Assembly: GCA_944384725.1 (NCBI GenBank)
Contig: CALWUJ010000001.1
Coordinates: 1-64,000 of the forward strand
Length of the DNA stretch: 64,000 nt
Reading direction: 5' to 3'
DNA from: an uncultured Agathobaculum sp.
GTDB taxonomy: Bacteria; Bacillota; Clostridia; Oscillospirales; Butyricicoccaceae
The translations under genes and the position numbers were made by a program. The notes beneath the pieces were generated by a model, which saw only the letters and a program-made list of their open reading frames with translations, did not search any database and was not told where the DNA came from. How positions within the stretch are numbered: position 1 is the stretch's first letter; every line of letters starts with the position of its first letter. Positions 22,626 to 52,777 of this stretch are shown in pieces.

Positions 22626-22639
22626 TGCAATATGCTATT

Positions 22640-29336: not shown

Positions 29337-29450
29337 ATGACTAACACGAAGAATGGTTCTAATCAGGGTATGGTTCCGGAAGCACGCGCTGCAATGGATC
29401 GCTTTAAGATGGAGGCGGCAGCCGAGGTTGCTGTCTCTTCTCCATCTTAA
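29337..29450 (+). CDS. Alpha/beta-type SASP gene, N-terminal half (interrupted)
   Basis: Small acid-soluble spore proteins coat spore DNA and protect it. The ATG at 29337 has a strong AAAGGAGAG site. Codons 1-29 encode a canonical SASP start (SNQGMVPEARAAMDRFKMEA). Instead of continuing EVGVNL, the frame leaves the family after EV and stops at 29448-29450, giving 37 aa. The remaining 42 codons are at 52649-52777 on the same strand. Joined at the shared GAGGTTG they make an uninterrupted 71-codon SASP. The last seven codons present here belong to the inserted element. As it stands the product lacks the DNA-binding C-terminal half. Confidence 0.93.
   Translation: MTNTKNGSNQGMVPEARAAMDRFKMEAAAEVAVSSPS
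29400..29449. other. Left attachment junction (attB left half + attP right half)
   Basis: The chromosome side ends GGCGGCAGCC (29414-29423), then central GA (29424-29425), then element sequence GGTTGCTGTC. Further out, CCATCTTA (29442-29449) starts 17 nt from the centre and mirrors TGAGATGG at the other end of the element. The SASP frame is lost immediately after the core. Confidence 0.8.
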
Positions 29451-29495
29451 AAAACCCCTTTACCACAACTATACTACATACCGGCTCACAACACA

Positions 29496-29535
29496 AACGG
29501 CCGCCTTTCACTTCCGTGAAAGGCGGCCGTTTTCT
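29496..29535. terminator. Bidirectional terminator at the left end of the element
   Basis: 16-bp perfect stem AACGGCCGCCTTTCAC (29496-29511) with its complement (29516-29531), loop TTCC, T-run after it on the plus strand. It insulates the minus-strand SLH gene from the SASP half. Confidence 0.9.
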
Positions 29536-29563
29536 ATTGCCACGCTTTTATAGAACAAAATGT

Positions 29564-31901
29564 TCACTCATCTGCGCGCACACGCACGGTATAGCTTTCG
29601 CCGTTCTCCAAATCAATGCCCCTATAGCTATACCCCGGCTCGATGAAGAAACTGCCGTCATCCTCAATATCCCAACTGGCTGCATAGGTCGTTCCGCTGC
29701 CGACGACCTCACCGGACGAATTGAGCAGCTCCCACACAAATTTCGGTGTCGAATAATGGCCGCAATCAGCCGTACCACGGAAGGAAATATCCAGCTCATA
29801 GCAATCGCCATAGGTGGAATAGCTCAGTTCTGTACCGATCTCCTCAATCGTGGCGGTGCCGTTTTTGTCCGTCACAGTCAGCGGAACGCCTTCGACGCGT
29901 ACTTCCGGCGCCGCCGCCTGCACTTCTCCGGCATCCTTGCCGCTGTCATTGCGGAAGGAGACAGTATACGAACCCTCCAGATCCACATTATTGAGATAGA
30001 TCGAAGCCGAGAACGTATCCCCTACGCTGTTCGGTGTGCCATGTGTATCAACAACACCACTGTATACGGTTTTTCCGTTTTCATCCTTCACTTGGCATTT
30101 GAGATACGGCTGGAACTTGAATCGGAAATCCTCATTCAGGCTGGTCAAGGTACCATTGACCTCAATGACGGCCAGACTGTCATTTGTCCAAGAGGACGGC
30201 TTGACATCGGTCACCTGAAGTGTACCGGCAATGATAGGATCGGACGGGACAAAGTCATAATCCTGATCCTCCCAATCTTTATCCTTGAGATACAGGCAGT
30301 TGAGCGTTACCGGCAGGCGCTCCGCCTTTACGTTAAACTGATACGCCGGCAGAACGGTAATCGTGCAGCTGCCCGTCGCGCCGTCGGGCGAAACCGCCGT
30401 AATGGTGACTTCACCACGGCGTTTGCCGGTTACCACGCCGCCATTTACCGTCGCAATCAGGGAATCAGACGTCTTCCATTCCTTGATCGTGCGATTGGTC
30501 GTGTTTTCCGGATAGAATTTCACATCCACCGAGCAGGTTGTGCCCTCACGGATGGATTCTTCGCTTGGTGTCAGCTCCAGACGTTCGCCTTTGACAACGG
30601 AAATCTCGCGCATGCGCATGATCGTTACGATGCTCTGCTCCCGGGTATACGAGCCCTGCGGATCGAACTTACCGCCTTCAATGCCGTTCATGATGCCCGC
30701 AGCCTGTACCTGACCAACCTGCGCATTGGCCCACGAAGAGATCGCGCTACTGTCCGTAAATGCAGGCGATGCTGCCTTTAGGTCAGTTCCGAGCTTACTG
30801 CTGAGATTGTTCAGAATAACAGCCGCCTGCTCACGGGTCAGTAGTTCATTCGGTGCAAACTTCCCATCACCGACACCCTGAATCACACCCAAACTGCCCA
30901 TTTTCTGCACATTGATATCCTTTGTATCCGAAAACTCCACCTTGGCACCGATGGTCCTCCCCGTGCTGTTCTCATACAGGCTGACCGCCAGCGCACAGAA
31001 ATCCGCACGAGTGATGGGTGTATTAAACTTATATCGCAGTTGTCTGGGGACAATTCCTTCCGCAATGCCGTTTTCCACATCGGCTGCCGCCCAAGCAGAT
31101 GGTGTGCGATAATGCGCCACATAATCCGGATCAACCCTTGTGGCCAGTGTATTCAGTGTGGACTGCACGGTGTTGCGTAGGTCATACGTTTTTTCTCCGC
31201 CGCTTGTCAGCTGCTGCAAGCGTGCATACCACGTTGCATGCGGCATTTCGACCGAACTGTTGTCATCCACATAATAAATAATGCATCTCACCAGTGGATG
31301 AGAACACATCCTGACTGATGTAAATATCCGGCGAGAAACGCATGTGAAATCCCTGTACGAGCTGCCATTTGCCGTCCACTACGGAATAGTAATAATCCGA
31401 TCCCCGGCTGGTTCCGGACGCATCGATCGAATAAACCGCATATTTGCGTCCGTCACTTCCGGTGCTGACCTTCATTTCGTATTCATAATTGTCACCACCC
31501 GAAAAATCGCGATCCACCGGGATTCCTCCGGCCAGACGCACCATTTTTCCGTCTTGATAGGTATACACGCAGTCGATCATGGCGGACACCATACTTTGCC
31601 CTTTGCCCCCCAGATCCTTTCCGAACACCAACTCCGGAATACCATTCTGATCAAAATCAATGAGCTGGGCATAACACACCTTTTCGTTGATCCAGTTAAC
31701 ATAAAAGTCATAATTAGTCAACTCGGACGACGGCACATCGGTCGGCGGCAGGTCGATGCTGTCCAGCTCGGTCTGCACAAAGTCGTAATACGCGCGGTAC
31801 GCGTCATCCACTGCGGCTGCTTCGGCAGTCACCGGACAAGACACTGCCACCGCAAGTGCCAATACCGAAAACAATCCCAAAGAACACAATCACTTTTTCA
31901 T
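29564..31901 (-). pseudogene. SLH- and Ig-like-domain surface protein, broken by a nonsense codon and a frameshift
   Basis: Intended start: ATG at 31901..31899 after AAAGGAGAGGG, encoding MKK, but codon 4 is TGA (31892..31890). The frame behind it encodes a signal peptide (LCSLGLFSVLALAVAVSCPVTAEAAA) and a DFDQNGIPELVFG calcium-loop-like region, then stops at 31263. The rest lies in another frame (from about 31309): two to three SLH repeats (ITRADFCALAVSLYEN, LTREQAAVILNNL, YTREQSIVTIMRM), a Big2-type Ig domain (TSDSLIATVNGGVVTGKRRGEVTITA) and Ig-like repeats to 29564. Removing one base of the AAA at 31276-31278 joins both frames as HYYYVDDNSSV. The original protein had about 775 residues and was probably exported and wall-bound. 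Confidence 0.85.
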
Positions 31902-32020
31902 ATGACCCTCTCCTTTACCTTTCTTGCAATTCTTTCCCCAAACACCTCTATGCTACCGCCCCCATTTTATGTTTTGCACAGAAATGAATTTATTTTTTTC
32001 ACTTTTTTGTTATATATGTC

Positions 32021-32049
32021 ATTTTAGCATTCTCCTCCTTTTCTGTCAA
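32021..32049 (-). promoter_or_regulatory. Intact promoter of the broken SLH gene
   Basis: Minus-strand consensus TTGACA (32049..32044), 17-bp spacer, TAAAAT (32026..32021). With the divergent promoter at 32143-32171 it accounts for the 324-bp gap 31902-32225. Confidence 0.75.
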
Positions 32050-32142
32050 ATCCTTCTCATTCCCAACTCCGCATAAGTGATCTTCCATTCTTTCCAATAC
32101 TGAATGCAACCGTTTTCTTCGCATTCCAAGGCAGAATTTGTT

Positions 32143-32171
32143 TTGCGGAATGGGGAGAAATTTGGTATAAT
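32143..32171 (+). promoter_or_regulatory. Promoter of the response regulator operon
   Basis: TTGCGG (32143-32148), 17-bp spacer, TATAAT (32166-32171), leader of about 50 nt to the ATG at 32226. Confidence 0.75.
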
Positions 32172-32225
32172 ACTGCACAGCAGAACCCCAAATACCGCCT
32201 TAGCGAGGAAAGGACGGGTGCCGCG

Positions 32226-33509
32226 ATGGCCGCTAAATCATTATATACCGTGATTGTCGCAGACGATGAGGATGAATTGAGGGAAGCTGTATGCAGCATG
32301 ATCCCTTGGGAGGAATACGGTTTCCGTCTGGTGGGCAGCGCCAGCAACGGGCTGGACGCACTGCAAATGGTAGAGGAATGCGAGCCTGACCTTCTGCTCA
32401 CCGATATCCGGATGCCGTTTATTTCCGGCATCGAGCTTGCCCGGCAGGTTCGCGAGATACGGCCTGCCACCAACATCGCTTTTCTCAGCGGTTACGACGA
32501 TTTTGAATACGCCAAACAGGCGATTCAATATAATATCATCAGCTATATGCTCAAACCCCTGACCATGGAGGGGCTGAGTAAGGAACTGCAAAATATCCGG
32601 CAGAAGATCGACACCCAGTTTGCCATGTTCCGTCAGGCAACCCCCAATCCCGGCGGCATTGACCTACAGACGGCAATGCTGATGCCACTGGTGCTGGATG
32701 ATTACGCCGAACCGGACGGAGAGCCGCGGGCAAAAGCCTTTGCCCGCCAATGCGGCTTGCTGCGGGATATGGATGACAGGTCCTATTTTGTCGTGATGGT
32801 ATCCACTCTGTTGGAAGCGGACGGCGGCAACTGCACCGCTCCCTCTTTTGTCGCGTCCGTCAATCGGCTGGCAACCAAATATCTGCGCGGCGCTCACTTT
32901 TTCGCATCCGGAAAGGTGATTTCCGTGCTGCTGGGCAATCCCTCCGATTTTGATAAGTATCTTCATATTCTGGCGGACGAAATCCCCCAAATGGCCGACC
33001 GTGTGTTGGGCAAATGCTGCCGCATCGGCATCAGTCGTGCCACACCGAATTTGACCGCTCTGCACGATGCATACCGGGAAGCGATGGAAGCACTGCGTCA
33101 GGGCGACCGCATGGAAAGCGGCGCACAGTTCATCAGCGACCTGTCGCCTGCTGTCAAGGGGGGCGAGCGGCTGTGCAAAAAGGCCATGGAGGCACTCAAC
33201 CAGCATTATATGGATGCCAACCTCTCTCTGGTTTCGCTCAGCGGCATGCTGACCGTCAGCCCCAACCACCTTTCTTCTTGCATCAAAAAATACACCGGCG
33301 AAACCTTTATCAATATCCTGATCCGCAAGCGAATGGAGGCCGCCCGCGAGCTTTTGGTTTCTTCCCCTCTGAAAATTCAGGAGATCGCCCAGCGGTGCGG
33401 CTATACCGACCAGCATTATTTCAGCTATTGTTTCAAAAAGTACTGCGGCGAATCCCCCAGCACCATGCGCCGCAGACTGGATCGGGAAAAGGTGGGTGAT
33501 GGGGCGTGA
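32226..33509 (+). CDS. AraC-type response regulator (YesN-like)
   Basis: 427-residue two-component regulator. The receiver domain has acidic pocket VADDED (11-16), phospho-acceptor D60 in LLLTDIRMP, and K107-region YMLKPLT. The C-terminal AraC/XylS DNA-binding domain includes SLSGMLTVSPNHLSSCIKK and the second helix-turn-helix IAQRCGYTDQHYFSYCFKKY. It overlaps the kinase gene by 4 bp (GTGA). Its position before mglBAC-gal suggests that it controls these sugar genes; this is inference from context. Confidence 0.93.
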   Translation: MAAKSLYTVIVADDEDELREAVCSMIPWEEYGFRLVGSASNGLDALQMVEECEPDLLLTDIRMPFISGIELARQVREIRPATNIAFLSGYDDFEYAKQAIQYNIISYMLKPLTMEGLSKELQNIRQKIDTQFAMFRQATPNPGGIDLQTAMLMPLVLDDYAEPDGEPRAKAFARQCGLLRDMDDRSYFVVMVSTLLEADGGNCTAPSFVASVNRLATKYLRGAHFFASGKVISVLLGNPSDFDKYLHILADEIPQMADRVLGKCCRIGISRATPNLTALHDAYREAMEALRQGDRMESGAQFISDLSPAVKGGERLCKKAMEALNQHYMDANLSLVSLSGMLTVSPNHLSSCIKKYTGETFINILIRKRMEAARELLVSSPLKIQEIAQRCGYTDQHYFSYCFKKYCGESPSTMRRRLDREKVGDGA

Positions 33510-35224
33510 AAGCCGGTGTCTCCCGCACAGGGCTGCGTATTACCACTATCCTCGTCTCCATGGTGGTGAGCGTAGTCGCTGTCATCCTGTGCTGCTGTAT
33601 TCTCCTCTTTCTCAACCGATATCGCAGCGCTATGGTGCAAAGCGCCCTGACCAACAGCGATCAGGCCGTCTCCCAAGTATCGAACACGGTCGGCAACTAC
33701 CTGCAAAGCATGGAGCAGGCTATGTCGCTGGTAGAATGGTCCCTACTGGAAAGCGCTGACAACCGCAATCAGCTTCTGGAGGCATTTCTGACCTTTCGCC
33801 CGGATGTGGTGGCAGTGACCAGCTATTCTCCTTCCGGCAAGATGCTGGACTGCTGGTGTCTGGATCGGGAACCGCGCGAGAACATCTATCAGAACCTGTC
33901 CTTTAATCTGGATCGGGCGCGCGCCTCCGGCGGTGCCTACATGACCGCCCCCCATGTAGAAAGCATTTTTGAAGGCTATTACCCTTGGGTCGTGACCATG
34001 ACTGTTCCGCTCGCGTCCGGCAACCAGACAGCATGGGTGTCTCTGGACCTGAGTTTTTCCAGCATCTCCACTTATATCAATAATGTCAGCATTGGCCAGC
34101 GTGGCTATTGCTTCCTGATGGACAAGGAAGGCAACATCGTCTATCATCCGCAGCAGCAGCTGATATACGCAGGCCTGAAATCCGAGGACACTTCCTCCCT
34201 GGCCTCCTTGACAGACGGTTCTTATGTTGACGATACGGTGATCTATTCCGTCACCAGTGTGGCGGACAGCGACTGGAGAATTGTGGGCGTCAGCTACGTG
34301 GATGAAATGGTCAACCGCAGCTTCCGGGAAATGATCCGCCTTTCCCTTGTGCTGGGCGCGGTGCTGCTTGCCGCTGCGGTGTTGACGAGTTTTCTTCTCT
34401 CCCGCCTGCTGGCGCGTCCACTCCGCGGTTTAGAAGCTGCTATGGAAAGCTTCGAGACCGACGCCGACCACTTCACCTATGTGCCTGTGGGCGGCACCCG
34501 CGAGGTACAGGAATTGTCCAGCTCATTCGAGCACATGGTGCTGCGCATCCAGCGCCTTATGTCCACCGTGCGCGAGGAAGAGGTCAACCTGCGCAAAACC
34601 GAACTGAAAGCGCTTCAGGCGCAGATCAATCCGCATTTTTTATATAATACGCTGGATTCTATTGCATGGATGTGTGAACAGGGCCGCAATGACGATGCGG
34701 TAAAAATGATCCACGCGCTGGCAAGGCTTTTCCGCATCAGCATCAGCAAAGGGCACGAACTTATCCCCATTGCCAAGGAGATCGAACACGCGGAAAGCTA
34801 TCTGCAAATCCAGAAATACCGCTATAAAAACCAATTCACCTATGAATTCGATATCGACCCCGCATGTCTGAACTACTACTGCAACAAGATCACCTTACAG
34901 CCCATCATCGAAAATGCCATCAACCACGGCCTTGACTTGCTGGTAGATGAAGGCCGCATCACTGTGCAGGTGCGGCAGGACGGCGATGACATTGTATTCA
35001 AGGTGCAGGACAACGGCGTAGGAATGAGCGACGAGCTGATCCAATCCATTCTGGCGCACGCTCCGGAGGATCGCACCGGCATCGGCATCCGAAACGTAAA
35101 CGACCGGCTGCAAATCTATTTCGGCAAGCAATACGGTCTGCACATCACCAGCGAACCGGATGTAGGCACTTGTGTGGAGCTTCGCATGCCGAAGATACAG
35201 GAGGGCGAGTATGAAACGAAATAG
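33506..35224 (+). CDS. Membrane sensor histidine kinase (YesM-like, LytS/His_kinase family)
   Basis: 572 residues: membrane segment at about 11-36, extracytoplasmic Cache-type sensor region (about 40-270), second membrane segment (about 279-301), HAMP linker, His_kinase domain with QINPHFLYNTLDSIAWM (phospho-acceptor H377), and a C-terminal ATPase domain (QPIIENAINHG, DNGVGM, GIGIRNVNDRL). GTG start overlapping the regulator stop. Partner of the AraC-type regulator. The ligand is probably a sugar or a sugar-loaded binding protein, given the next gene. Confidence 0.93.
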   Translation: MKAGVSRTGLRITTILVSMVVSVVAVILCCCILLFLNRYRSAMVQSALTNSDQAVSQVSNTVGNYLQSMEQAMSLVEWSLLESADNRNQLLEAFLTFRPDVVAVTSYSPSGKMLDCWCLDREPRENIYQNLSFNLDRARASGGAYMTAPHVESIFEGYYPWVVTMTVPLASGNQTAWVSLDLSFSSISTYINNVSIGQRGYCFLMDKEGNIVYHPQQQLIYAGLKSEDTSSLASLTDGSYVDDTVIYSVTSVADSDWRIVGVSYVDEMVNRSFREMIRLSLVLGAVLLAAAVLTSFLLSRLLARPLRGLEAAMESFETDADHFTYVPVGGTREVQELSSSFEHMVLRIQRLMSTVREEEVNLRKTELKALQAQINPHFLYNTLDSIAWMCEQGRNDDAVKMIHALARLFRISISKGHELIPIAKEIEHAESYLQIQKYRYKNQFTYEFDIDPACLNYYCNKITLQPIIENAINHGLDLLVDEGRITVQVRQDGDDIVFKVQDNGVGMSDELIQSILAHAPEDRTGIGIRNVNDRLQIYFGKQYGLHITSEPDVGTCVELRMPKIQEGEYETK

Positions 35225-36182
35225 ATTGCGCTCTATTTGGGCTGCTATGCTGTGCATCCTGCTTTGCGGCTGCTCCACCGGCACCGACTATTCCCGTCAG
35301 CATACGGTGGCTCTGGTGGTCAAGTCCACGCAGACCGAATTCTGGCTGTCCGTTTTCGCCGGGGCGGAAGCTGCTGCCACAGAATATAATCTAAAGCTCA
35401 ATATCATCGGTCCGGATACCGAGGAGGATTATGAAGCCCAGAACCAAATGGTGGCCGATGCAGTCAGTGCAGGCGCAGAAGCGATTGTCTTTTCCGCCAT
35501 CGACTACGAAAACAACGCCGCTGCCATTGATGCCGCCGCCAAGCAGGGCGCCAAAATCGTAGCCATTGACAGTAACGTAGACTCCGAAGCGGTGAGCACC
35601 TATATCGGCACCGATAACTACGCTGCCGGACAAATGGCAGCGCAGGCAGCTCTTGAGCGGGTCAAAACACCGCTCAAAGTCGGCATCGTCAACTATGATA
35701 TCAGCAGCGCCAACGGTCAGGAGCGAGAACAAGGCGCGATGGATTCCTTTGCCGACAGCGGCAGAGCCGAGGTCATCAGCGTCATCAACACGCTGGCTGA
35801 AGCCGGACACGCCAAGCGGGACACGGCTGCTCTGCTCACATCTCACCCGGAAATCAATGTGCTGCTGGCCTTTAACGAGCCGACCAGCGTAGGCGCCGCA
35901 CAGGCAATCGAGGAGATGGGTTTGTCCGACACGGTTTTTCTGGTGGGCTTTGATTCCAACGTTGCCACCGTGGATGGGCTGCAGGAAGGCTCTGTCGATG
36001 CCCTTATTGTGCAGAACCCTTATGCCATGGGATATCTGGGCGTGGAAAGCGCATACAAGCTGCTCGCCGGACAGTCCGGTGGGATGGAACGCATCGTGGA
36101 CACCTCAACCCAGATCGTCGACCGGGATAATCTTTTTGAAGTGGATAGTCAAAAGGCTCTGTTCGCCTTTGACTCCCGTTGA
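35211..36182 (+). CDS. Periplasmic-binding-protein-like sugar lipoprotein of the sensor operon
   Basis: 323-residue protein starting at the ATG inside the end of the kinase gene (14-bp overlap). A lipoprotein signal with lipobox LCGC puts the acylated Cys at residue 21. The mature part is a Peripla_BP_4 (RbsB/YtfQ-like) fold: KSTQTEFWLSVFAGAEAAA, VFSAIDYENNAAAIDAAAKQG, DSNVDSEAVSTYIGTDNY, GFDSNVATVDGLQEG. Tight coupling to the kinase and the absence of a permease next to it suggest a sensory co-receptor. It is distinct from the transporter's own MglB. Confidence 0.87.
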   Translation: MKRNRLRSIWAAMLCILLCGCSTGTDYSRQHTVALVVKSTQTEFWLSVFAGAEAAATEYNLKLNIIGPDTEEDYEAQNQMVADAVSAGAEAIVFSAIDYENNAAAIDAAAKQGAKIVAIDSNVDSEAVSTYIGTDNYAAGQMAAQAALERVKTPLKVGIVNYDISSANGQEREQGAMDSFADSGRAEVISVINTLAEAGHAKRDTAALLTSHPEINVLLAFNEPTSVGAAQAIEEMGLSDTVFLVGFDSNVATVDGLQEGSVDALIVQNPYAMGYLGVESAYKLLAGQSGGMERIVDTSTQIVDRDNLFEVDSQKALFAFDSR

Positions 36183-36207
36183 TTTGTGTAATATGCACAG
36201 TTTTTAT

Positions 36208-36256
36208 GGGGTGTAATTTTACTTTGTGATAGATTTCAATGAAATTCACCCCTTTT
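36208..36256 (+). terminator. Terminator after the sensor operon
   Basis: GGGGTG-t-AATTT (36208-36219) pairs with AAATT-CACCCC (36242-36252) around a 22-nt loop and is followed by TTTT. Confidence 0.6.
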
Positions 36257-36272
36257 GCAGTGATTTTTTACC

Positions 36273-36301
36273 TTGTTTTTCCGTCTCACTTCGCCTACAA
36301 T
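36273..36301 (+). promoter_or_regulatory. Promoter of mglB
   Basis: TTGTTT (36273-36278), 17-bp spacer, TACAAT (36296-36301), then a leader of about 60 nt to the ATG at 36369. Confidence 0.7.
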
Positions 36302-36368
36302 AAAAGCAAGCAGGGAGGAACCTCAGTCGGATGTCCCTCCCAATTCAAAGGAGAGAAGGAGAATCATT

Positions 36369-37652: not shown

Positions 37653-37701
37653 TTCGGGCTCGGACCCTTTTCAAGCCAAATAATAAGTAACAAGCCAATG
37701 T

Positions 37702-37780
37702 GATTGGGGAGAAGGAATTCTCCGTCTTAGGGGAAGCGATTCTCCATACGGAAGAAGGCCTTCTCCCCAATCCTGTTTTT
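37702..37780 (+). terminator. Intercistronic stem-loop between mglB and mglA
   Basis: A 14-bp stem GATTGGGGAGAAGG (37702-37715) pairs with 37759-37772, with a large internal part that can itself pair (GGAGAA/TTCTCC), followed by CTGTTTTT. Such a partial terminator or mRNA-stabilising structure after a binding-protein gene would favour excess MglB over MglA and MglC. Confidence 0.75.
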
Positions 37781-37849
37781 CCAAGGAAACCGGGCGGATC
37801 ACTTGGATCTGTCCAATCTGGCAATATTGCATAAACGGGAGTAACGAGA

Positions 37850-39358: not shown

Positions 39359-39373
39359 TAGGAGAAATCGCTT

Positions 39374-41029: not shown

Positions 41030-41051
41030 GCCAACCTGATATGAAAAGCGA

Positions 41052-41104
41052 AAAGCCGCTGCAAGGCACTTATAAAGGCCCCGCCTGCTTGCAGCGGCTT
41101 TCCA
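41052..41104 (+). terminator. Terminator-like stem after mglC
   Basis: 14-bp stem AAAGCCGCTGCAAG (41052-41065) with CTTGCAGCGGCTTT (41088-41101). The U-tract is short, so read-through into galK is likely. A second small stem CGCTCCG/CGGAGCG (41143-41162) lies just before the galK ribosome site and might affect translation. Confidence 0.65.
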
Positions 41105-41181
41105 TTTACACGAACCGAAAAATATTTGATGTTTGACAACAACGCTCCGCCCCACCGGAGCGAGAAGGAGTGAATGCAACC

Positions 41182-42468: not shown

Positions 42469-42509
42469 ACGATACAACTGCGATTATGTGAAAGGAGCGC
42501 ACCTGTAAC

Positions 42510-43502: not shown

Positions 43503-43504
43503 GC

Positions 43505-45001: not shown

Positions 45002-45004
45002 GAA

Positions 45005-46042
45005 ATGACAGAATTTTCGCATCAACCCTTTGGCGTCACGGCTGACGGTCAGGCAGTCGAGCAGTGGACGCTGCGCGCCGGTTCCTATGCCGCTCAGGTA
45101 CTGACCTACGGCGGTGTCCTGCGTTCGTTTACCGTCCCCTCTCCTGACGGTAGCCGGGACATTGTGCTGGGGTATGACAGTCTGGCCGAATATGAGGCAC
45201 AGGACAAGTATCTGGGCGCATTGGTCGGCCGTGTGGCCAACCGTATCGGCGGCGCAGCCTTCGACCTGAACGGCGTCCACTACTCGCTGGCTGTCAACAA
45301 CGGCCCCAATTGCCTGCATGGCGGCTTGCGTGGCTTTGACCGCGCCGTATGGAAGGCACAGGTCGAAAACGACGCCTTGGTTCTTCGGCATGTCAGTCCG
45401 GCTGGGGACGAAAACTTTCCCGGCACGCTTGAGGTACAAGTGACCTACACCCTCACGGATGACGGTGCGCTCACACTGGATTATCAGGCCAAGAGCGATG
45501 CCGATACCCTGTGCAACCTGACCAACCACAGCTATTTCAACCTGCTGGGACACGCCCACGGTTCTCTGGAAGGACAGCAGGTGCAGGTTTTTGCCGATGC
45601 CATCACCGAAACCGACGCCGACAGCACGCCAACCGGTGTTCTGCTGCCGGTCGAGGGTACGCCGTTCGATCTGCGTACCCCCCGGGATTTCCTGCAGGGC
45701 TTGGCGATGGAACATCCTCAGCTGACGCTGGGCAACGGATACGATCATAACTTTACACTGCACACGACGCCTGTCTCCCCGCTGGAACCGGCAGCACGGG
45801 TCTGCGGCGGCGGTCTGTGTCTGGAATGCTCCACCACCCAGCCCGGCTTGCAGCTGTACACGGCCAATTATCTGGACGGCAGCGCCGGTAAGGACGGCGC
45901 ATGCTATGGCCCGCGGTCTGCTTTCTGCCTGGAAACGCAGGCTTGGCCGGACTCCATCCATCATGATAATTTCCCCTCCGTCGTGCTTACAGCTGGTCAG
46001 ATCTATCATCACACCACCTGCTATCGCGTCACAATGATCTGA
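45005..46042 (+). CDS. galM: Aldose 1-epimerase (galactose mutarotase)
   Basis: Interconverts beta- and alpha-D-galactose for GalK. The 345-residue beta-sandwich enzyme has GRVANRIGGAAFDL, the catalytic-His region NHSYFNL, GYDHNF and the C-terminal ETQAWPDSIHHDNFPSV. It starts 3 bp after galT, completing the Leloir set. Confidence 0.95.
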   Translation: MTEFSHQPFGVTADGQAVEQWTLRAGSYAAQVLTYGGVLRSFTVPSPDGSRDIVLGYDSLAEYEAQDKYLGALVGRVANRIGGAAFDLNGVHYSLAVNNGPNCLHGGLRGFDRAVWKAQVENDALVLRHVSPAGDENFPGTLEVQVTYTLTDDGALTLDYQAKSDADTLCNLTNHSYFNLLGHAHGSLEGQQVQVFADAITETDADSTPTGVLLPVEGTPFDLRTPRDFLQGLAMEHPQLTLGNGYDHNFTLHTTPVSPLEPAARVCGGGLCLECSTTQPGLQLYTANYLDGSAGKDGACYGPRSAFCLETQAWPDSIHHDNFPSVVLTAGQIYHHTTCYRVTMI

Positions 46043-46079
46043 GGGTAAATTACACAATTTTATCTTAATAAATCACCGC

Positions 46080-46117
46080 AACCGGAACACTGCAAACACC
46101 TTTGCAGTGTTCCGGTT
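46080..46117 (+). terminator. Terminator after galM
   Basis: 17-bp perfect stem AACCGGAACACTGCAAA (46080-46096) with 46101-46117, loop CACC, then GTTTGC. The rest of 46118-46341 contains a probable promoter (TTGACG 46225-46230; TATAAA/TAAAAA 46246-46253) for the OPT gene and nothing else I can support. Confidence 0.8.
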
Positions 46118-46341
46118 GTTTGCATATTCCCCTTCTTCATCAAAAAGCACCACATTCCTACAATAAAATTCCGAGAATTTGTTATTATTTTGCCGTTTTT
46201 TATCGCAAAATAGCGCATTCTTCCTTGACGCATCGCAACTTTTTGTATAAAAATATATGAGTTGTCTGTACTGAGCGTCTGCGCTTTTCACTTTATCGCT
46301 CTACTATGCAGACAAGAAACAAAATGAAGGGATCGAATGTT

Positions 46342-48267
46342 GTGGACAAGAAAGAATTCCAACCTTATGTTCCCGCCGACAAAGTTATGCCGGAATTTAC
46401 TGTGGTATCCATCCTGTTGGGTTCCATTCTGGCAGTCGTCTTTGGCGGTGCGAACGCCTATCTTGGGCTGCGAGTCGGCATGACCGTGTCTGCCTCCATC
46501 CCCGCTGCAGTTATCTCGATGGGCATCATCCGAAAAGTTCTGCGCCGTGACTCCATTCTGGAGAACAACATGGTGCAAACCATCGGCTCGGCGGGCGAAT
46601 CCGTTGCGGCCGGTGCGATCTTCACCCTGCCTGCTCTGTTCATGTGGGCAAAGGAAGGCCTGTGCGATGTGCCGTCTCTGGTGGAGATCGGCCTGATCGC
46701 ACTGTGCGGCGGTGTACTGGGCGTACTGATGATGGTACCCCTGCGCAGCGCGCTGATCGTCAAGGAGCACGGCGTGCTGGCTTATCCGGAAGGACAGGCT
46801 TGTGCTGAAGTGCTGATTGCCGGCGAAGAAGGCGGCTCCAAGGCGTCGACCGTATTCTCCGGTCTGTTTATTGCCGCCATCTACAAGTTCGTAGCCGACG
46901 GCCTGAAGATCTTCCCCAGCGAAATCACCTATGACATCTCCGCTTATAAGGGCTCCGGTGTCGGCATTGATGTACTGCCCGCTCTGGCTGGTGTTGGTTA
47001 CATCTGCGGCGCACGAGTATCTTCCTACCTGTTTGCCGGCGGCGTGCTGGGCTGGCTGGTCATCATGCCGCTCATGTGCCTGTTCGGCAGCGACGCTATT
47101 CTTTTCCCGGTCATGGATATGACCATCGGCGAGCAGGTTGCTAAAAACGGCGTTTCCGCACTGTGGGGCAACTATCTGCGTTACATCGGTGCAGGTGCGG
47201 TTGCCTGTGGCGGTGTGCTGAGTCTTCTGAAATCCCTGCCCATGATCATCCGCACCTTTAAGGATTCCATGAGCGTTTACGGCAAGGGCCGCGAAGCCAG
47301 CACCCTGCGCACGCAGCAGGATATTTCCATGCGCAGCGTGCTGCTGGGTATCCTGCTCGTTGCGCTGGCGCTGTGGCTGATTCCTGCCATCCCGCTGAAC
47401 TTCTTCACTGCACTGATTGTTATCGTGTTCGGCTTCTTCTTTGCGACGGTATCTTCCCGTATGGTTGGTCTGATCGGCTCCTCGAACAACCCGGTTTCGG
47501 GTATGGCTATTGCCACCCTGCTGATCTCCACCATCCTGCTGAAATCCACCGGCACGGACGGTGCGGAAAGCATGACAGCTGCCATTGTTATCGGCGGCAT
47601 CATCTGTGTCATTGCTGCGATTGCCGGCGATACCTCTCAGGACCTCAAGACGGGCTTCCTGGTTGGCGCTACCCCGAAAAAGCAGCAGATCGGTGAGCTG
47701 ATCGGCGTTGCGGTTTCTGCTATTGCTATCGGCGGTACGCTTTACCTGCTGTCCATGGCTTGGGGCGGCTACGGTTCGGATGCACTGCCCGCTCCGCAGG
47801 CAACGCTGATGAAGATGATCGTGGAAGGCGTTATGGGCGGCAATCTGCCGTGGAACCTCGTCTTTGCGGGTGTCTTCATTGCGCTGGTCATTGAGATTCT
47901 TGGCCTCCCTGTTCTGCCGGTCTCCCTCGGCCTGTATCTGCCCATTTATCTGTCTGTTCCGATCATGCTGGGCGGTATTCTGCGCTGGTTCCTCGAGAAG
48001 CGCAAGTACAGCTCTGAGAAGGACAAGAACACGGTTATCCAGTCCGGTATCCTGTACTCTTCCGGTTTGATCGCTGGCTAAGGCATCGTTGGTATCATTC
48101 TGGCTATGCTGGCCGTCATCCCGATGGGCGCAGGCAGCAATGTCGACGAGTTCATCGACCTGAGCGGCTCGTTCAGCATCGGCCGCATCGGTGGTCTGAT
48201 TGTGTTTGCACTTCTGCTGCTGACCATTTATCTCTTTGCAACCAAAGAACAGAAGAAGAACAAATAA
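46342..48267 (+). pseudogene. OPT-family oligopeptide transporter, interrupted by an in-frame TAA
   Basis: Oligopeptide transporter family membrane protein. A GTG start at 46342 is supported by GAAGGGA 9 nt upstream. The frame runs 579 codons to TAA (48079-48081), where the family has GEG in LIAGEGIVGI; GAA to TAA is a single-base change. The same frame then continues open for 61 codons (GIVGIILAML... FALLLLTIYLFATKEQKK) to a natural stop at 48265-48267, encoding the final two membrane helices. Undamaged length would be 641. A truncated product lacking the last helices could still be made. Confidence 0.9.
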
Positions 48268-48286
48268 AAAACACTTGCTTTCTTCC

Positions 48287-48323
48287 GAACAGGGCTGTAT
48301 CCTACTGGTATACAGCCCTGTTC
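48287..48323 (+). terminator. Stem-loop between the OPT gene and the PqqD-like gene
   Basis: 14-bp stem GAACAGGGCTGTAT (48287-48300) with ATACAGCCCTGTTC (48310-48323). No U-run follows, so it may be a processing or partial termination site. Confidence 0.55.
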
Positions 48324-48343
48324 GACCATTATAGGAGGATACT

Positions 48344-48703
48344 ATGGCAAAGAAGCAACAAAACTATCTGGACTTTATCCCTGTGGTCAATCCGCAGAAC
48401 AGCTGGAATGAAGACGCTCAGGGTATTGTCACGATTGATATGGTCCACCACGGTTTTTATGCACGCATTGCGCAAAAATTTTTTCACACGCCGCGCGTCA
48501 GCCATATCAAGCTGGATGAATACGGCAGCTTTCTTTGGAAAGAAATCGACGGCACGCAGACCGTTGGTGACCTTGCCAAAAAGATGAAAGCACAGTTCGG
48601 TGAAAAGGCTGAGCCCTTGTACGACCGGCTGGTCAAGTATATGCAGATTCTGCACAACAACCGTTTTATCCTGTTTGCGGGAAAGGATAAGGTAAAATCA
48701 TGA
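48344..48703 (+). CDS. PqqD-family protein
   Basis: 119 residues with the PqqD fold pattern: KLDEYGSFLWKEIDGTQTVGDLAKKMKAQFG and a following helix. PqqD-like domains bind peptide substrates for modifying enzymes, but no radical SAM or other partner is encoded nearby. ATAGGAGG precedes the ATG. It overlaps the next gene by 4 bp. The neighbourhood OPT-PqqD-small membrane protein-pepD suggests a link to peptide uptake and breakdown. Confidence 0.8.
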   Translation: MAKKQQNYLDFIPVVNPQNSWNEDAQGIVTIDMVHHGFYARIAQKFFHTPRVSHIKLDEYGSFLWKEIDGTQTVGDLAKKMKAQFGEKAEPLYDRLVKYMQILHNNRFILFAGKDKVKS

Positions 48704-49044
48704 GCACTGGACAGATCATCATTGGCATTGTTCTGTTTGCCATTGCGTCTGCCATTCTGTATGTCTGGGGACTGCGCAAAAGCATGACGCAGGCCGCTGA
48801 TTTGGAACACATCCTGCTGAGCAAGAGCGCCGCGCGCGTGATGCAATATCTCAGACAGCACCCCACCATTTCCCAAAAGGAAATCGCGCGCCAGATCAAA
48901 AACGTCAAAGCGGGGCTGTTCTGGTCCCGCAAGCAGGTACAGGTGCAAGACGCAACTGTGTTCGCCAAAAAGCTGACCCAGTATATGCTGGAACAGCAAC
49001 TGCTGGAACCGGCGGGCAACGCGTGCTACAAGCGAAAATCATAA
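48700..49044 (+). CDS. Small membrane protein with winged-helix-like tail, unknown function
   Basis: 114 residues. One N-terminal membrane segment (IIIGIVLFAIASAILYVWG, about 6-24) is followed by a helical cytoplasmic part (RVMQYLRQHPTISQKEIARQIKNV) resembling a winged-helix pattern. I do not recognise the family. The start overlaps the PqqD-like gene (ATGA), and pepD follows after 25 bp. Confidence 0.7.
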   Translation: MSTGQIIIGIVLFAIASAILYVWGLRKSMTQAADLEHILLSKSAARVMQYLRQHPTISQKEIARQIKNVKAGLFWSRKQVQVQDATVFAKKLTQYMLEQQLLEPAGNACYKRKS

Positions 49045-49069
49045 CCATTTCAAAAAGGAGCATCACACA

Positions 49070-50509
49070 ATGAATGTACTGGAACAATTAGAACCCCAAA
49101 GCGTATTCCACTTTTTTGAGCAGATGTGTGCCATCCCGCATGGCTCCGGTAATACCAAGGCTATCAGCGACTGGTGCGCTGCTTTTGCGCAGGCGCGCGG
49201 GCTGGAATACCATCAGGATGCCGACAACAATATCATTATCATCAAAGAAGCTACCCCCGGCTATGAGCAGGCAGAGCCCATCATTTTGCAGGGTCATTTG
49301 GACATGGTCTGCGAAAAGGAGCTTGGTTGCACCAAGGACATGGAAACAGAAGGGCTGGATCTGATGATCGACGGCGACTGGGTTCGCGCCAAGGGCACCA
49401 CGCTCGGCGGTGACGACGGTATCGCGGTCGCCATGGCGCTGGCTGTGCTCGACGCAAACGATCTTGCACATCCGCGCGTGGAAGCCGTATTTACGGTCGA
49501 TGAGGAGATTGGTCTGCTGGGCGCGGACTCGCTCGATGTCAGTCCGCTCAAAGGCCGCCGAATGATCAATATGGACTCGGAAGCCGAAGGCATCTTCACT
49601 GTCAGCTGCGCAGGCGGCAACACCACCACCTGCATTCTGCCGCTGCGCCGCGACGCATTTTCCGGCTGTCCCCTGCGTATCACAGTCGGCGGTCTGACCG
49701 GCGGTCACTCCGGCGCTGAAATCGACAAAGGCCGTGCCAACGCCAACATGCTGATGGGCCGCATATTGCAAGCCATTGCTCTGCGCACAGAGCTGCGCAT
49801 TCAGTCTGTCAACGGCGGTTTGAAAAACAACGCCATCCCGGTCGAGTCCATTGCCGATGTCTTGGTCGCAGACGAAACAGCAGCGCGAGACGTCATCACA
49901 GAAATGGAAGCTGCCCTGAAAGAGGAATGCCGTGTTGCCGATCCGGCGCTGCATATCAGCACGGAAGCGGCAGAGACGGCACAGACTCCGCTAGATGCGG
50001 CAACCACCGATCAGGTGATCTGCATGCTCACCTGCCTGCCCAACGGCATTCTGGCCATGAGTGCGGATATTCCGGGTCTGGTGCAGACCTCCCTGAACCT
50101 CGGTATTCTGACCACGACGGCCGAAGAACTGTCCGCTGTATTCAGCCTGCGCAGCTCGATCGACTCTCAGCTCCAGATGCTCAAGCAGCGCCTGACCTGC
50201 CTGATGAATCAGCTGGGCGGCCGTGTGGAATTTGAGGGAGAATATACCGGCTGGCAGTATCAGGAGCACTCTCCCCTGCGCGAATTGATGGTCGAGGTAT
50301 TCCAAGCACAGTACGTCCATGCCCCCAAGATCGAAGCGATTCACGCCGGTTTGGAATGCGGTTTGTTCGCCGGAAAAATCCCCGGTCTGGACTGTGTTTC
50401 TATCGGCCCGGATATGCCGGAAATCCACACCCCGCGTGAACGCATGAGCATTGCTTCGGTGCAACGCGTTTGGAAGTTCCTTGTCGAAGTGCTTGCACGC
50501 GCCAAGTAA
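49070..50509 (+). CDS. pepD: Beta-Ala-His dipeptidase / cytosol non-specific dipeptidase (M20)
   Basis: 479-residue metallopeptidase of the M20C type. Zinc-site motifs: QGHLDMVCEK, LGGDDGIAVAMAL, FTVDEEIGLLGA, MDSEAEG, TGGHSGAEI. It cleaves dipeptides in the cytoplasm, fitting the upstream peptide transporter remnant. AAAAAGGAGC precedes the ATG. Confidence 0.95.
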   Translation: MNVLEQLEPQSVFHFFEQMCAIPHGSGNTKAISDWCAAFAQARGLEYHQDADNNIIIIKEATPGYEQAEPIILQGHLDMVCEKELGCTKDMETEGLDLMIDGDWVRAKGTTLGGDDGIAVAMALAVLDANDLAHPRVEAVFTVDEEIGLLGADSLDVSPLKGRRMINMDSEAEGIFTVSCAGGNTTTCILPLRRDAFSGCPLRITVGGLTGGHSGAEIDKGRANANMLMGRILQAIALRTELRIQSVNGGLKNNAIPVESIADVLVADETAARDVITEMEAALKEECRVADPALHISTEAAETAQTPLDAATTDQVICMLTCLPNGILAMSADIPGLVQTSLNLGILTTTAEELSAVFSLRSSIDSQLQMLKQRLTCLMNQLGGRVEFEGEYTGWQYQEHSPLRELMVEVFQAQYVHAPKIEAIHAGLECGLFAGKIPGLDCVSIGPDMPEIHTPRERMSIASVQRVWKFLVEVLARAK

Positions 50510-50560
50510 AACGCCCTTTCAAAATTCCGTATCACATTTTGAAAGCACAGCAATGTCAAA

Positions 50561-50597
50561 ACCGCCGATCCTGCATCCTGCAGGGTCGGCGGTTTTT
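50561..50597 (+). terminator. Terminator after pepD
   Basis: 15-bp stem (ACCGCCGA-CCTGCA arms, one T-G pair, 50561-50575 with 50579-50593), loop TCC, then TTTTT. Confidence 0.9.
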
Positions 50598-50702
50598 CGT
50601 TTCCGGCTGGCCGTTCCTCTGTCCAATACCGCTTGTCGAACAGCCATGCAGCACATAATTTTGCGTTGGATGATGCAACTTATAGGAAAAGGAGGAATTG
50701 CT

Positions 50703-50891
50703 ATGCATACCGATACCCATTCCACCCTGCCCGCTGTACAAGGCACACGGACACAGATCGGTGCAGGTACTTTTCTGATCAGTCGGCAATACGTTGGCAA
50801 TTGTCCGATCGGCGAACTGCTCCAGCAGCGTGTACAGCAAGCTGCACACACAACATCATCCATTGACGAGAAGATCGGCGCCGCGGTATAA
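50703..50891 (+). CDS. 62-aa protein upstream of the recombinase (possible TnpW-like or excision factor)
   Basis: The ATG at 50703 has a strong AAAAGGAGGAATT site. The product contains TQIGAGTFLISRQYVGNCPIG followed by an amphipathic helix (ELLQQRVQQAA), loosely like the IGxTTYxV...DKL pattern of TnpW-type small proteins beside serine recombinases in clostridial elements. It lies 36 bp before the recombinase start, so the two are probably co-expressed. A role as a recombination directionality factor is inference. A CATAATTT box at 50654-50661 could be a sporulation-sigma -10, but I see no matching -35. Confidence 0.6.
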   Translation: MHTDTHSTLPAVQGTRTQIGAGTFLISRQYVGNCPIGELLQQRVQQAAHTTSSIDEKIGAAV

Positions 50892-50927
50892 TCATTGCGT
50901 GAGCCGGTTCTGAAAGGAGCGAACCAC

Positions 50928-52601
50928 ATGAGAACCGGTAACAAAACATTGGCATTCGCTTACTTGCGCCTTTCCAACGAGGAAGCGCACAGTAGTGAAT
51001 CATCCAGTATTGCCAACCAACGGCAAATGATTCGTGACTATTGCCAACGCCACAGCATTATGCTGGTACGCGAATTCGTGGACGACGGCTACTCAGGCGG
51101 CAATTTTGACCGTCCTGCATTTCAGGATATGCTGCGACAGCTGCACGATAACAGAGCCAATATGGTACTGACCAAAGACCTGTCCCGACTTGGGCGCGAC
51201 ATGCGCGAGGCCAGCTATTATGCCGAGCAGTTTTTCCCGGAGCACGGTATCCGCTATCTGACCATTGCAGATAACTTTGACACCGCGCACGAAAACGTCA
51301 TGGCGCCGTTTCAGTTTGCCATGAACGAAGTCTATCTGCGGGACGGTTCACGCAAGGTCAAAGACGTGCTCCGCAGCAAACGGGAAAACGGTCAGTACTG
51401 TGCCTGCCCGCCTTATGGCTATCGTAAGAACCCGTCAGACAAAAGCCGTCTTGTCCCGGACGAGCAGACCGCACCCATTGTACAGCGTATTTTCCAGCGA
51501 GCAGCAGCCGGAGATTCCTCACGAAGGATCGCGCTCGACCTGAACGCGGACAGCGTTATCCCCCCGCTCAAATACCGTGTGCTGTTTCGTGACGATTTCA
51601 GCCCAGAGGGCGCGGCACGAGCATCCGACCTGTGGAACTACACCACCGTCAAACGGATTCTGAAAAACCCGGTCTATCTCGGACACACTTTGCTCGGCAA
51701 AAGCCGCAAGGTCAGCGTCAAGTCCAAGAAAAAAGTTGCTATACCGCAAAGCGACTGGGCCGTGACGCTTGACACACATCCCCCACTCGTCACCCAGACG
51801 CTCTATGAACAGGCGCAACGCAATCTGGGGCGCGGACAGCGCACCAACCGTACCGATGGAGACATCCGCAAAAGTATTTTTTCCGGACTGGTGTTCTGCG
51901 CACGCTGCGGACATGCGCTCTGTTCCTGCGGCACAGTCTACAAAGGCGAACGGGAAAAATACTGGTATTTATCCTGCACACATCAGCGCGGCGATATCGC
52001 CAATCACTGCGACGGCGTGCGCATCAAATATGCGGATCTGATGGAAGTAGTGCGACGTGACCTTAATGATCTGCTGGCGCTGACCGATGCACAGGCCGAA
52101 TCGCTTGCACGGGCGGCGGCAGAAAGAGAGCAGAGTGCATCCGAACGCACAGCACGGCAGGCTCGTTTACGGCAAGCACAGTCCCGCCTGCTGACCATCG
52201 ACAAAATTATCACCAAGCTGTACACGGACAACGCGGAAGGACGGCTGGACGACGATCGTCTCACCCGCATGGTCGAAGCACTGGAGCAAGAATCCGCTTC
52301 GCATCAGGCCGTCATCGCAGAGTTATCGCAGACGCTTCCACAGCAAGAGGACACGGAGGAACGCTTTCGCCGCTTCTTTGCACTTACCAAACAATACAGC
52401 CAAATTGACGTACTCGACCGCGAGACGCTGCTCACCTTTGTTGAACGCATTGAAGTCGGGCCTAAGCAATTTGCCGACGGCCGGCGCAAAGCGACCCACC
52501 GCAACACCCCCTATCAGCAAAGCATCCGCATATCATATCGCTTTATCGGTGAAATCGCCAGCGGCAGCACGCAGGCGCTCGATGCCCCCTGCAACTTTTG
52601 A
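50928..52601 (+). CDS. Large serine recombinase (resolvase-Recombinase-zinc ribbon)
   Basis: 557 residues. The N-terminal resolvase domain has AYLRLSNEEA with nucleophile Ser16 and VDDGYSGGNFDRPAFQDML. The central Recombinase domain spans about 160-300 (PYGYRKNPSDKSRLVPDEQTAPIVQRIF). The zinc ribbon CARCG...CSC...SC...HC is at about 323-365, and a coiled-coil region follows (AESLARAAAEREQSASERTARQARL). The ATG at 50928 follows GAAAGGAGCGAACC. It ends 48 bp before the right att core, the usual place for an element's own integrase. Same family as SpoIVCA, SprA and TnpX; it should catalyse integration and, with a helper, excision. Confidence 0.95.
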   Translation: MRTGNKTLAFAYLRLSNEEAHSSESSSIANQRQMIRDYCQRHSIMLVREFVDDGYSGGNFDRPAFQDMLRQLHDNRANMVLTKDLSRLGRDMREASYYAEQFFPEHGIRYLTIADNFDTAHENVMAPFQFAMNEVYLRDGSRKVKDVLRSKRENGQYCACPPYGYRKNPSDKSRLVPDEQTAPIVQRIFQRAAAGDSSRRIALDLNADSVIPPLKYRVLFRDDFSPEGAARASDLWNYTTVKRILKNPVYLGHTLLGKSRKVSVKSKKKVAIPQSDWAVTLDTHPPLVTQTLYEQAQRNLGRGQRTNRTDGDIRKSIFSGLVFCARCGHALCSCGTVYKGEREKYWYLSCTHQRGDIANHCDGVRIKYADLMEVVRRDLNDLLALTDAQAESLARAAAEREQSASERTARQARLRQAQSRLLTIDKIITKLYTDNAEGRLDDDRLTRMVEALEQESASHQAVIAELSQTLPQQEDTEERFRRFFALTKQYSQIDVLDRETLLTFVERIEVGPKQFADGRRKATHRNTPYQQSIRISYRFIGEIASGSTQALDAPCNF

Positions 52602-52624
52602 CCCATTTTATCTATTTATCACTT

Positions 52625-52660
52625 TGAGATGGTGCGGGAACACCAAGGGAGGTTGGCGTC
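52625..52660. other. Right attachment junction (attP left half + attB right half)
   Basis: Element side: TGAGATGG (52625-52632), then AACACCAAGG (52639-52648), central GA (52649-52650), then the chromosomal SASP sequence GGTTGGCGTC. TGAGATGG ends 17 nt before the centre, mirroring CCATCTTA at the left junction. Confidence 0.8.
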
Positions 52661-52777
52661 AACCTGAAGCAGGGCTATAACGGCGATCTGACTTCCCGTC
52701 AGGCTGGTTCGATCGGTGGTCAGATGGTCAAGAAGATGATCGAATCCTACGAACAGAACCTGGCTGGCCAGGGCTGA
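52649..52777 (+). CDS. Alpha/beta-type SASP gene, C-terminal half (interrupted, no start)
   Basis: 42 codons plus TGA encode EVGVNLKQGYNGDLTSRQAG and then SIGGQMVKKMIESYEQNLAG, the most conserved DNA-binding part of alpha/beta SASPs. There is no in-frame start or ribosome site; upstream in this frame a TGA occurs at 52625-52627 inside the element. The missing first 29 codons are at 29337-29423. Both halves are on the plus strand and share GAGGTTG exactly at the break. A natural gene terminator follows at 52790-52835. Confidence 0.93.
   Translation, partial: EVGVNLKQGYNGDLTSRQAGSIGGQMVKKMIESYEQNLAGQG

Follow-up and report, generated by a model that had tools for sequence, protein, structure and literature searches.

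A spore-protein gene split by a recombinase-bearing DNA segment in Agathobaculum and across its order: a possible gene-intervening element of the forespore

The first 64,000 nucleotides of contig CALWUJ010000001.1 from an uncultured Agathobaculum sp. (assembly GCA_944384725.1, order Oscillospirales), here called the window, contain a gene for an alpha/beta small acid-soluble spore protein (SASP) that is split in two by 23.2 kb of DNA encoding its own large serine recombinase (LSR). Joining the two halves in silico yields an uninterrupted SASP gene. Ten of 25 Agathobaculum genomes, as well as members of other families of the order, have their SASP gene split at this very codon, so a chance origin can, on these sequence comparisons, be excluded. 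We propose that the intervening DNA is a gene-intervening element: the LSR and a probable directionality factor would excise it in the forespore and so rebuild the SASP gene, and the excised circle would reintegrate after germination. We judge this proposal to have a somewhat better than even chance of being correct.

The SASP gene is present as two incomplete halves

A profile search with PF00269 across the whole window genome (G000; 1.94 Mb, 47 contigs, 78% complete) matched the two halves only. They lie on the same strand (Table 1), and the renewed reading of the sequence together with this search bore out the two-part gene described in the initial annotation. Neither half is complete, as had been stated there. 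The reading frame of the 5' half runs through GAGGTTG into a stop codon encoded by the element (AVSSPS-stop), while the 3' half, which begins GAG GTT GGC, is preceded at a distance of 7 codons by an in-frame stop, and none of the codons in between is ATG, GTG or TTG. The predicted joining product, an unbroken frame of 71 codons, was likewise reproduced in silico. A promoter-like pair of boxes precedes the 5' half, and such a pair was located upstream of the SASP gene in all 26 aligned genomes (23 of the genus, 3 of the family). At the other end, the Pfam domains of the gene next to the right boundary agree with the large serine recombinase announced there; the adjacency holds, and the distance to the SASP 3' half is 47 bp in the window, where 48 bp had been given.

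An error of assembly, named in the initial annotation as an alternative, is an unlikely cause of the split, because in an isolate genome assembled into 2 contigs (G012, A. massiliense Marseille-P4005) the two halves are likewise found, on the same strand and about 20 kb from each other, with an interval of ~19.7 kb.

Table 1. Positions of the split gene, its attachment sites, the promoters and the genes of the interval in the window
Feature	Position	Strand	Basis
SASP promoter-like site: TTATA (29259-29263), 17 nt, CAAAATA (29281-29287)	29259..29287	+	aligned upstream regions
SASP 5' half, codons 1-29	29337..29423	+	sequence, PF00269
attL: GA core 29424-29425, then element sequence ending the truncated frame (AVSSPS-stop)	29424..29450	+	comparison with relatives
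Intervening DNA, 23,225 bp	29426..52650		both junctions; SASP gene uninterrupted at the same codon in 14/25 genus genomes
Cargo: SLH / Ig-like surface protein	29564..31309	-	Pfam
Cargo: open reading frame without Pfam match	31263-31889		
Cargo: response regulator, sensor kinase, sugar-binding proteins, MglA-like, MglC-like, galK, galE, galT, galM	32226..46042	+	NCBIfam and by eye
Cargo: OPT transporter, PqqD, winged-helix-like open reading frame (below cut-off), M20 peptidase	46306..50509	+	Pfam
Forespore-type (sigma-F/G-like) promoter of the small gene: ACATA (50653-50657), 18 nt, CAACTTA (50676-50682)	50653..50682	+	matrix
TnpW-like small protein, 62 aa, candidate directionality factor	50703..50891	+	constant place before LSR across loci
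Near-consensus sigma-A promoter of LSR: TTGACG, 18 nt, TATAAT, over the end of the small gene	50863..50892	+	consensus match
LSR, 557 aa	50928..52601	+	PF00239, PF07508, PF13408, DUF4368
attR: element arm TTTGAGATGGTGCGGGAACACCAAGG, then GA core 52649-52650	52623..52650	+	comparison with relatives
SASP 3' half, codons 30-71 and stop, start codon absent	52649..52777	+	sequence, PF00269

The interruption recurs at one codon in the genus and the order

An uninterrupted gene in close relatives, which the initial annotation had suggested looking for, was found in 14 of the 25 genus genomes, intact at exactly the codon that is split in the window. Seven genomes have both halves, six of them on one contig and G016 on two; three have one half (G011, G015, G023), and one gave no match (G008). 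In each interrupted Agathobaculum genome one PF00269 gene was found. At a threshold of E 1e-100 the LSR is present in 8 of the 25 genomes, as one copy each, 47-48 bp before the SASP 3' half; all 14 uninterrupted genomes lack it.

Outside the genus, the matches listed from a sample of 394 genomes of the order include split SASP genes in G087, G049, G222, G161, G278 and G321, as well as single or odd halves, for example in G373, G133 and G368; they serve as examples, from which no rate is derived. In addition, contigs of GTDB genomes, in part the same genomes as above, were scanned with an alignment of 11 recombinases. Among the best 80 of 85 relatives (48-94% identity), the LSR locus joins the SASP 3' half in 65 cases and the SASP 5' half at the same codon in 11; three join something else and one reaches a contig end. 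In Flintibacter muris DSM 110149, too, the LSR stands beside the SASP 3' half; a 5' half was not located there. Because 76 of the 80 loci thus join a SASP half at this site, the sequences tie the LSR family closely to one codon of one gene, and the interruption in the window is not an isolated case but is found across families of the order.

The loci at which the recombinase end lies on the SASP 5' half carry the element in the opposite orientation (L191, L199, L203-L206, L208, L210, L219, L223, L228). The neighbourhood of the SASP gene varies, even among intact genomes, and in two of the latter (G002, L051; G017, L058) the gene is flipped in place relative to ptsI. A second change point was seen at the 3' end of the SASP gene (L048, L053, L096-L098, L174, L179, L180, L183, L184, L193, L197, L201 and also L209, L237, L242, L243), where, after QMVKKM or a variant of it, a similar foreign tail follows, often of the form xP[VI]R...RTAPGH.... 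At L095 the sequence breaks at this change point, and the adjoining 551-aa open reading frame (ORF) is serine recombinase-like by motif; two element families may therefore share the SASP gene as a hot spot.

The crossover most likely takes place at a GA dinucleotide

The direct repeat GAGGTTG had been taken as the break point in the initial annotation. Comparison of the left and right attachment sites (attL and attR) with those of relatives revises this point. Directly after GA, the attL sequences of other genomes diverge (GAGCTTG in G001, GACCTTG in G014, GACTTTG in G011), so that a 7-bp core was rejected, and in G222 and G087 attL and attR have little beyond GA in common. Only GA is common to every attL and attR of the interrupted relatives and, for this reason, the crossover was placed at these two bases as its most likely position.

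The locus shows three features of a gene-intervening element: the coding sequence of a sporulation gene is split, a site-specific recombinase of the element lies at one end, and precise recombination restores the frame. The last was found in silico, by joining at GA, in all nine resolved loci, which have both halves on one contig and were joined (G000, G001, G004, G005, G012, G014, G087, G161, G222). Among loci with both halves, the interval measures from ~4.1 to 36 kb.

The recombinase and a candidate directionality factor

The LSR has the Resolvase, Recombinase and zinc-ribbon domains of its class by Pfam, as well as the catalytic serine. The sequence Y-L-R-L-S, which we take to be the catalytic-serine motif, is invariant in the 11 aligned LSRs (Ser16). 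Its nearest solved sequences are TnpX (best match in the PDB, entry 2mhc, E 3.3e-31) and YokA of SPbeta. TnpX is the LSR of the Tn4451-type mobilisable transposons, in which a gene for TnpW lies beside it. The element resembles these transposons in its LSR and perhaps in the adjoining TnpW-like small gene, but differs in having a nearly fixed target, the SASP gene, and no mobilisation gene was found among the genes of the window interval that were scanned or named.

A small ORF with the form GxxTYxVxRxF, a loose motif, precedes the LSR at 72 of the 73 places searched. Its similarity to TnpW amounts to a match in one of 13 members at E 0.21; no family in Pfam or NCBIfam matched above cut-off, and PHROGs and the PDB sequences gave no useful match. 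In an AlphaFold2 model of moderate confidence (mean pLDDT 72.2, pTM 0.33), a beta-hairpin of the small protein leads into a helix. Because SprB (58 aa) and GirX (42 aa) are comparable in location and length, the protein is a candidate for, and probably is, a recombination directionality factor.

Two promoter types precede the recombinase and the small gene

The near-consensus sigma-A promoter of the window LSR is a common feature of the family. Of the 72 loci whose upstream sequence was long enough, 63 match it at 10 or more of 12 bases, versus 3 of 216 control windows inside genes. The small ORF is preceded by a site of a different kind. For its analysis, a forespore matrix was trained on the gpr and SASP promoter sets of the genus, with the consensus sequences ~GNATA, 17 nt, CAAANTA (gpr) and ~NHATA, 17 nt, CANNNTA (SASP). 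This matrix found a site 48-51 nt before the start of the small ORF in all eight Agathobaculum loci, with spacers that differ by eye, and six of the eight scored at p < 0.05 against shuffles. Outside the genus, 45 of 64 loci have a forespore-type site at a distance of 44-53 nt upstream of a start, versus 18 of 502 control ORFs, with start codons searched and the best of several taken in loci and controls alike; with a single automatic start per locus the counts were 27 of 64 versus 7 of 215. When the loci were grouped by LSR cluster (75% recombinase identity), 16 of 24 clusters had the site in at least half of their members.

Several points count against a forespore promoter at this place. The sites of G012 (p 0.15) and G016 (p 0.26) do not beat shuffles, and the window site is modest when taken alone (p = 0.025 against shuffles, with 10.8% of 231 control ORFs scoring as high). 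In the seven elements from outside the genus that were tested first, with start codons set by hand, only G278 fell below 0.05. The range of 44-53 nt was fixed after the data had been seen, and the small ORFs had been found with a loose motif. Moreover, the contrast between promoter types is one-sided, the mother-cell comparison (spoIVA) consisting of 6 of 20 loci with best scores of at most 1.1.

Promoters of sigma-F in C. difficile are distinguished by a G upstream of the -10 box and those of sigma-G by an A downstream of it; gpr belongs to sigma-F, and the ssp (SASP) genes are sigma-G forespore genes (PMC3789822). A G precedes the -10 box at 24 of the 53 sites of the small ORF and at 20 of the 25 gpr sites; among the 26 SASP sites it does so at one. 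The downstream A of sigma-G was not seen at the 26 SASP sites, 24 of which have a C after the box. The upstream G mark of sigma-F fits an early-forespore small ORF; an excision factor made early and SASP made later would be the order needed for repair before expression.

These promoters bear on a further reading, in which excision takes place only in the mother cell, like that of skin and SPbeta, and the host uses or makes its SASP differently from other spore formers. The four published cases considered here (skin, SPbeta, gin and yin) all lie in mother-cell genes, a trait they have in common though it is not a formal requirement of such elements. The interrupted gene does not share this trait, as judged by its identity and by the forespore-type site upstream of it; in C. 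difficile, the SASP genes are transcribed in the forespore under sigma-G (PMC3789822), and the small-ORF promoter fits the gpr/SASP matrix, within the one-sided contrast described above. We regard excision in the mother cell only as improbable.

The interval carries a galactose operon of native appearance

Twelve of the 18 genes in the window interval were scanned against Pfam and NCBIfam and six were named by eye; the names of the regulator, the kinase and the gal genes were read from the sequence, not assigned by profile. Much of the 23.2 kb is taken up by an operon for galactose uptake and the Leloir pathway with its regulators, in which the best NCBIfam matches of the MglA-like, the MglC-like and two binding proteins all remain below curated cut-offs. 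The operon lies inside the interval in the same gene order in G000, G005, G001 and G014. It also occurs outside the SASP gene, in G003 (which has an intact SASP gene), G015 and G023, and on a third contig in G016. Its synonymous distances are in the range of gpr. For these two reasons the operon looks native, and a reading of the cargo as foreign DNA was rejected.

Other intervals differ in content. That of G012 holds type I restriction-modification, Rep-like and FtsK-like genes, with a DUF6017 gene lying outside; in G004, little accompanies the pair of LSR and small ORF apart from a HipA-like gene (below Pfam cut-offs). In G015 (L042, 1-3074) the OPT, PqqD-region and peptidase genes, which are inside the interval in the window, stand outside it, beside the SASP 3' half. 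No phage structural or replication gene was found among the 12 of 18 interval genes scanned, and no relative of the LSR was confirmed in viral contigs, on which grounds a prophage was rejected. No LSR relative was found on plasmids at E 1e-60.

Both halves are conserved in interrupted genomes

The 3' halves lack an in-frame stop over 28 codons in 64 of 64 loci (L187 was dropped, as its contig ends). Downstream of the last in-frame stop, 54 of 65 reach the SASP sequence without an intervening ATG, GTG or TTG, and four have an ATG. Across the 64 halves, pN/pS is 0.169, a value without an intact comparison set. Within the genus, the ratio of nonsynonymous to synonymous divergence (dN/dS) over codons 1-30 of the 3' half is 0.028 in eight interrupted genomes versus 0.026 in 13 intact ones (G006, with an altered end, was dropped). 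The 5' half shows no amino-acid difference in any pair of the seven interrupted genomes with both halves; when G011 and G023 are included, its dN/dS is 0.008, versus 0.030 in the 14 uninterrupted genomes. By these measures the SASP halves are constrained much as intact genes are. Two observations count against the proposed element: over the whole 3' half (42 codons), interrupted genomes reach a dN/dS of 0.101 and intact ones 0.071, and in G004 an in-frame ATG immediately precedes the 3' half.

Constraint on the halves has to be set against the possibility that we are dealing with an ordinary integrative family, whose attachment site in the chromosome (attB) happens to be a conserved SASP codon and which simply switches SASP off while inserted, with no role in sporulation. 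Such a family would account for the cargo that varies between G012 and G004, for the uninterrupted genomes interspersed among interrupted ones in the species tree, and for TnpX as the nearest solved sequence of the LSR. It would not lead one to expect 3' halves that stay open and constrained though most are without a start codon, a forespore-type promoter before the small gene, or an LSR found at a single place in each genus genome. In addition, gpr, whose product degrades SASPs on germination (PMC3789822), is retained in all 25 genus genomes. We consider an ordinary integrative family unlikely, if still the strongest of the competing explanations.

The window genome and G005 give an indication of the age of the interruption. 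Their intervals contain the same 18 genes in the same order, the synonymous divergence (dS) is 0.37 for the recombinase and 0.36 for gpr, and no nonsynonymous difference is present in either the 5' half (29 codons) or the 3' half (42 codons). The near-equal dS and the identical gene order suggest that the interrupted state probably predates the split of these two genomes and that the SASP halves diverged while interrupted. Against a simple line of descent, the recombinase dS is clearly greater than that of gpr in 25 of 28 pairs, so the history of the recombinase appears mixed rather than simply vertical. The two values are close in G000/G005 and G014/G015, and the recombinase value is the smaller one in G004/G015 (0.53 vs 0.67).

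Retention over this time also bears on a variant in which excision in the forespore is final: spores are left without the element, and the interrupted state is maintained by growth without sporulation or by acquiring the element again. Scattered intact relatives, such as G003 beside G001, and intact genes in which no insertion scar was seen at the codon would agree with unreversed excision. The 18-gene interval shared by G000 and G005 across a dS of ~0.36 and the galactose operon in the interval of four species argue against it, and we rate it as slightly less likely than the ordinary integrative family.

Comparison with known elements

The initial annotation had likened the element to skin and SPbeta. 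The likeness holds for the split, the restoration and the recombinase; it does not extend to the cell type, as those elements lie in mother-cell genes and SASP is a forespore gene. In C. difficile, skin interrupts sigK; its LSR is made throughout, the directionality factor is specific to the cell type, and the LSR alone integrates (PMC5025042). Shared with that element are an LSR that adjoins the 3' portion of the gene and a small factor with a sporulation promoter (here a candidate only). In contrast, sigK acts in the mother cell, which dies, whereas SASP acts in the forespore, whose DNA is inherited. SPbeta in spsM of B. subtilis also combines an LSR, SprA, made during growth, with a small partner of 58 aa, SprB, timed by sporulation, and is precisely repaired (PMC4191935), as the SASP gene is in silico; it differs in being a phage genome with a mother-cell gene and promoter, while the 12 scanned genes (of 18) in the window interval include no phage gene. 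The gin element in gerE of B. cereus ATCC10987 likewise has non-phage cargo, a short sporulation gene and a small helper, GirX (42 aa), but uses three recombinases in a mother-cell gene and is described from B. cereus and B. toyonensis (PMC5595907), unlike the one LSR family in many families here. The yin element in yabG of C. botulinum is clostridial and has a recombinase with a proposed directionality factor; it is prophage-like, interrupts a sigma-K gene and has been called unique (PMC10747680).

Searches of the open-licence literature of PubMed Central (PMC) turned up no description of a SASP gene interrupted by an element, in line with the initial annotation, which knew of none. In a large survey of LSRs (PMC10083194), the words spore, SASP and acid-soluble are absent, and sporulation occurs once, in the references.

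A possible switch operating once per spore cycle

According to PMC4191935 and PMC5025042, SPbeta and the C. difficile skin element survive because excision is confined to the dying mother cell and the spore keeps the element. For the SASP element, we suggest the following cycle. In growing cells, the LSR would be made from its sigma-A-type promoter without its partner and would hold the element in place within the SASP gene. At an early stage of sporulation, the TnpW-like small protein would be produced in the forespore from the sigma-F/G-type promoter, the small protein would turn the LSR to excision, and attL and attR would recombine at GA to rebuild the SASP frame. Sigma-G would then transcribe the intact gene. 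After germination, the small protein would be gone, the LSR would again act alone and the excised circle would reintegrate.

Excision points to the forespore because both the repaired gene and the promoter type are those of the forespore. The forespore genome is the inherited genome, and hence the circle would normally have to return, as otherwise the cargo with its galactose operon would be lost; if excision does occur in the forespore, the cargo long retained in G000 and G005 suggests that it usually returns. The vegetative promoter of the LSR could supply this step, given that the skin recombinase of C. difficile alone suffices for integration.

We think it possible, with somewhat less than even confidence, that the family as a whole constitutes a reversible germ-line switch across the order, in which the SASP gene is opened and closed once per spore cycle and ordinary metabolic genes travel in the moving segment. 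If so, a segment of the inherited genome would be excised in each spore and sealed in again after germination. The comK prophage of Listeria, which is excised in a cell that is not terminal, is a precedent for such a reversible switch. It differs in being a phage and in interrupting a gene for competence, not sporulation. This prophage is mentioned in PMC5025042. Widespread interruption of a forespore gene either breaks the mother-cell rule or forces a reversible cycle, and it puts a direct question to cultured gut commensals, namely whether the genome of the spore differs from that of the growing cell. For gut metagenomics, it means that calls of sporulation based on SASP genes can miss split ones.

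Observations that do not fit

What the sequence shows directly is the split with its in-frame repair, the fixed site of the LSR, constraint on either half, and two types of promoter. The following weighs against the proposed cycle. Excision and the circle are inferred from these features, as are the role of the small protein, the cell type of excision and reintegration. Furthermore, some halves have unexpected neighbours. The 5' half is followed in G023 by ligA, ispH-S1 and other core genes, with spoIVA nearby (L044), and in G011 by glmS-like and NFACT genes (L043), while the recombinase end in G016 adjoins alaS (a name read from the sequence) with one in-frame stop (L040). Halves in other contexts, named in the initial annotation as an outcome contrary to its reading, were thus partly encountered, in G011, G015, G016 and G023. 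The misfit contigs of G011, G016 and G023 hold one SASP half each; either the chromosome is rearranged there or the contigs are in wrong bins.

These core genes beside the halves, on contigs with one half, and the varying SASP neighbourhood of intact genomes would also agree with remnants of rearrangement or assembly joins, whose halves are no longer rejoined. Such an origin appears very improbable in view of nine loci with both halves on the same strand of one contig, ~4-36 kb apart and with matching att ends, one of them in an isolate genome, and of the constraint on both halves.

Sporulation of the hosts is also unproven. The gene spoIVA was not found in five of the 25 genomes (G000, G001, G014, G016, G008); it is present in all 14 uninterrupted genomes and missing from four of the eight LSR carriers. 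A 9.5-kb query covering the spoIVA region (with ORFs read as mreB and tadA) gave no match in G000, G014 and G008 and ~0.6 kb in G001 and G016, in a search that scored 40 of the 41-78 first-look candidates per genome. As the surroundings of spoIVA are also unmatched, or nearly so, in these genomes, the absences are likely, though not proven, to be assembly gaps.

Other features of the window

A search for tRNA genes gave none, and the sole match in an Rfam scan of the window was a T-box leader on the minus strand (22386-22627), outside the element. Upstream of the SASP gene, positions 26525-29089 encode a TetM-like GTPase fused to an NYN-type domain (the domain name is that of the initial annotation), which matched tetracycline-protection models below cut-offs only.

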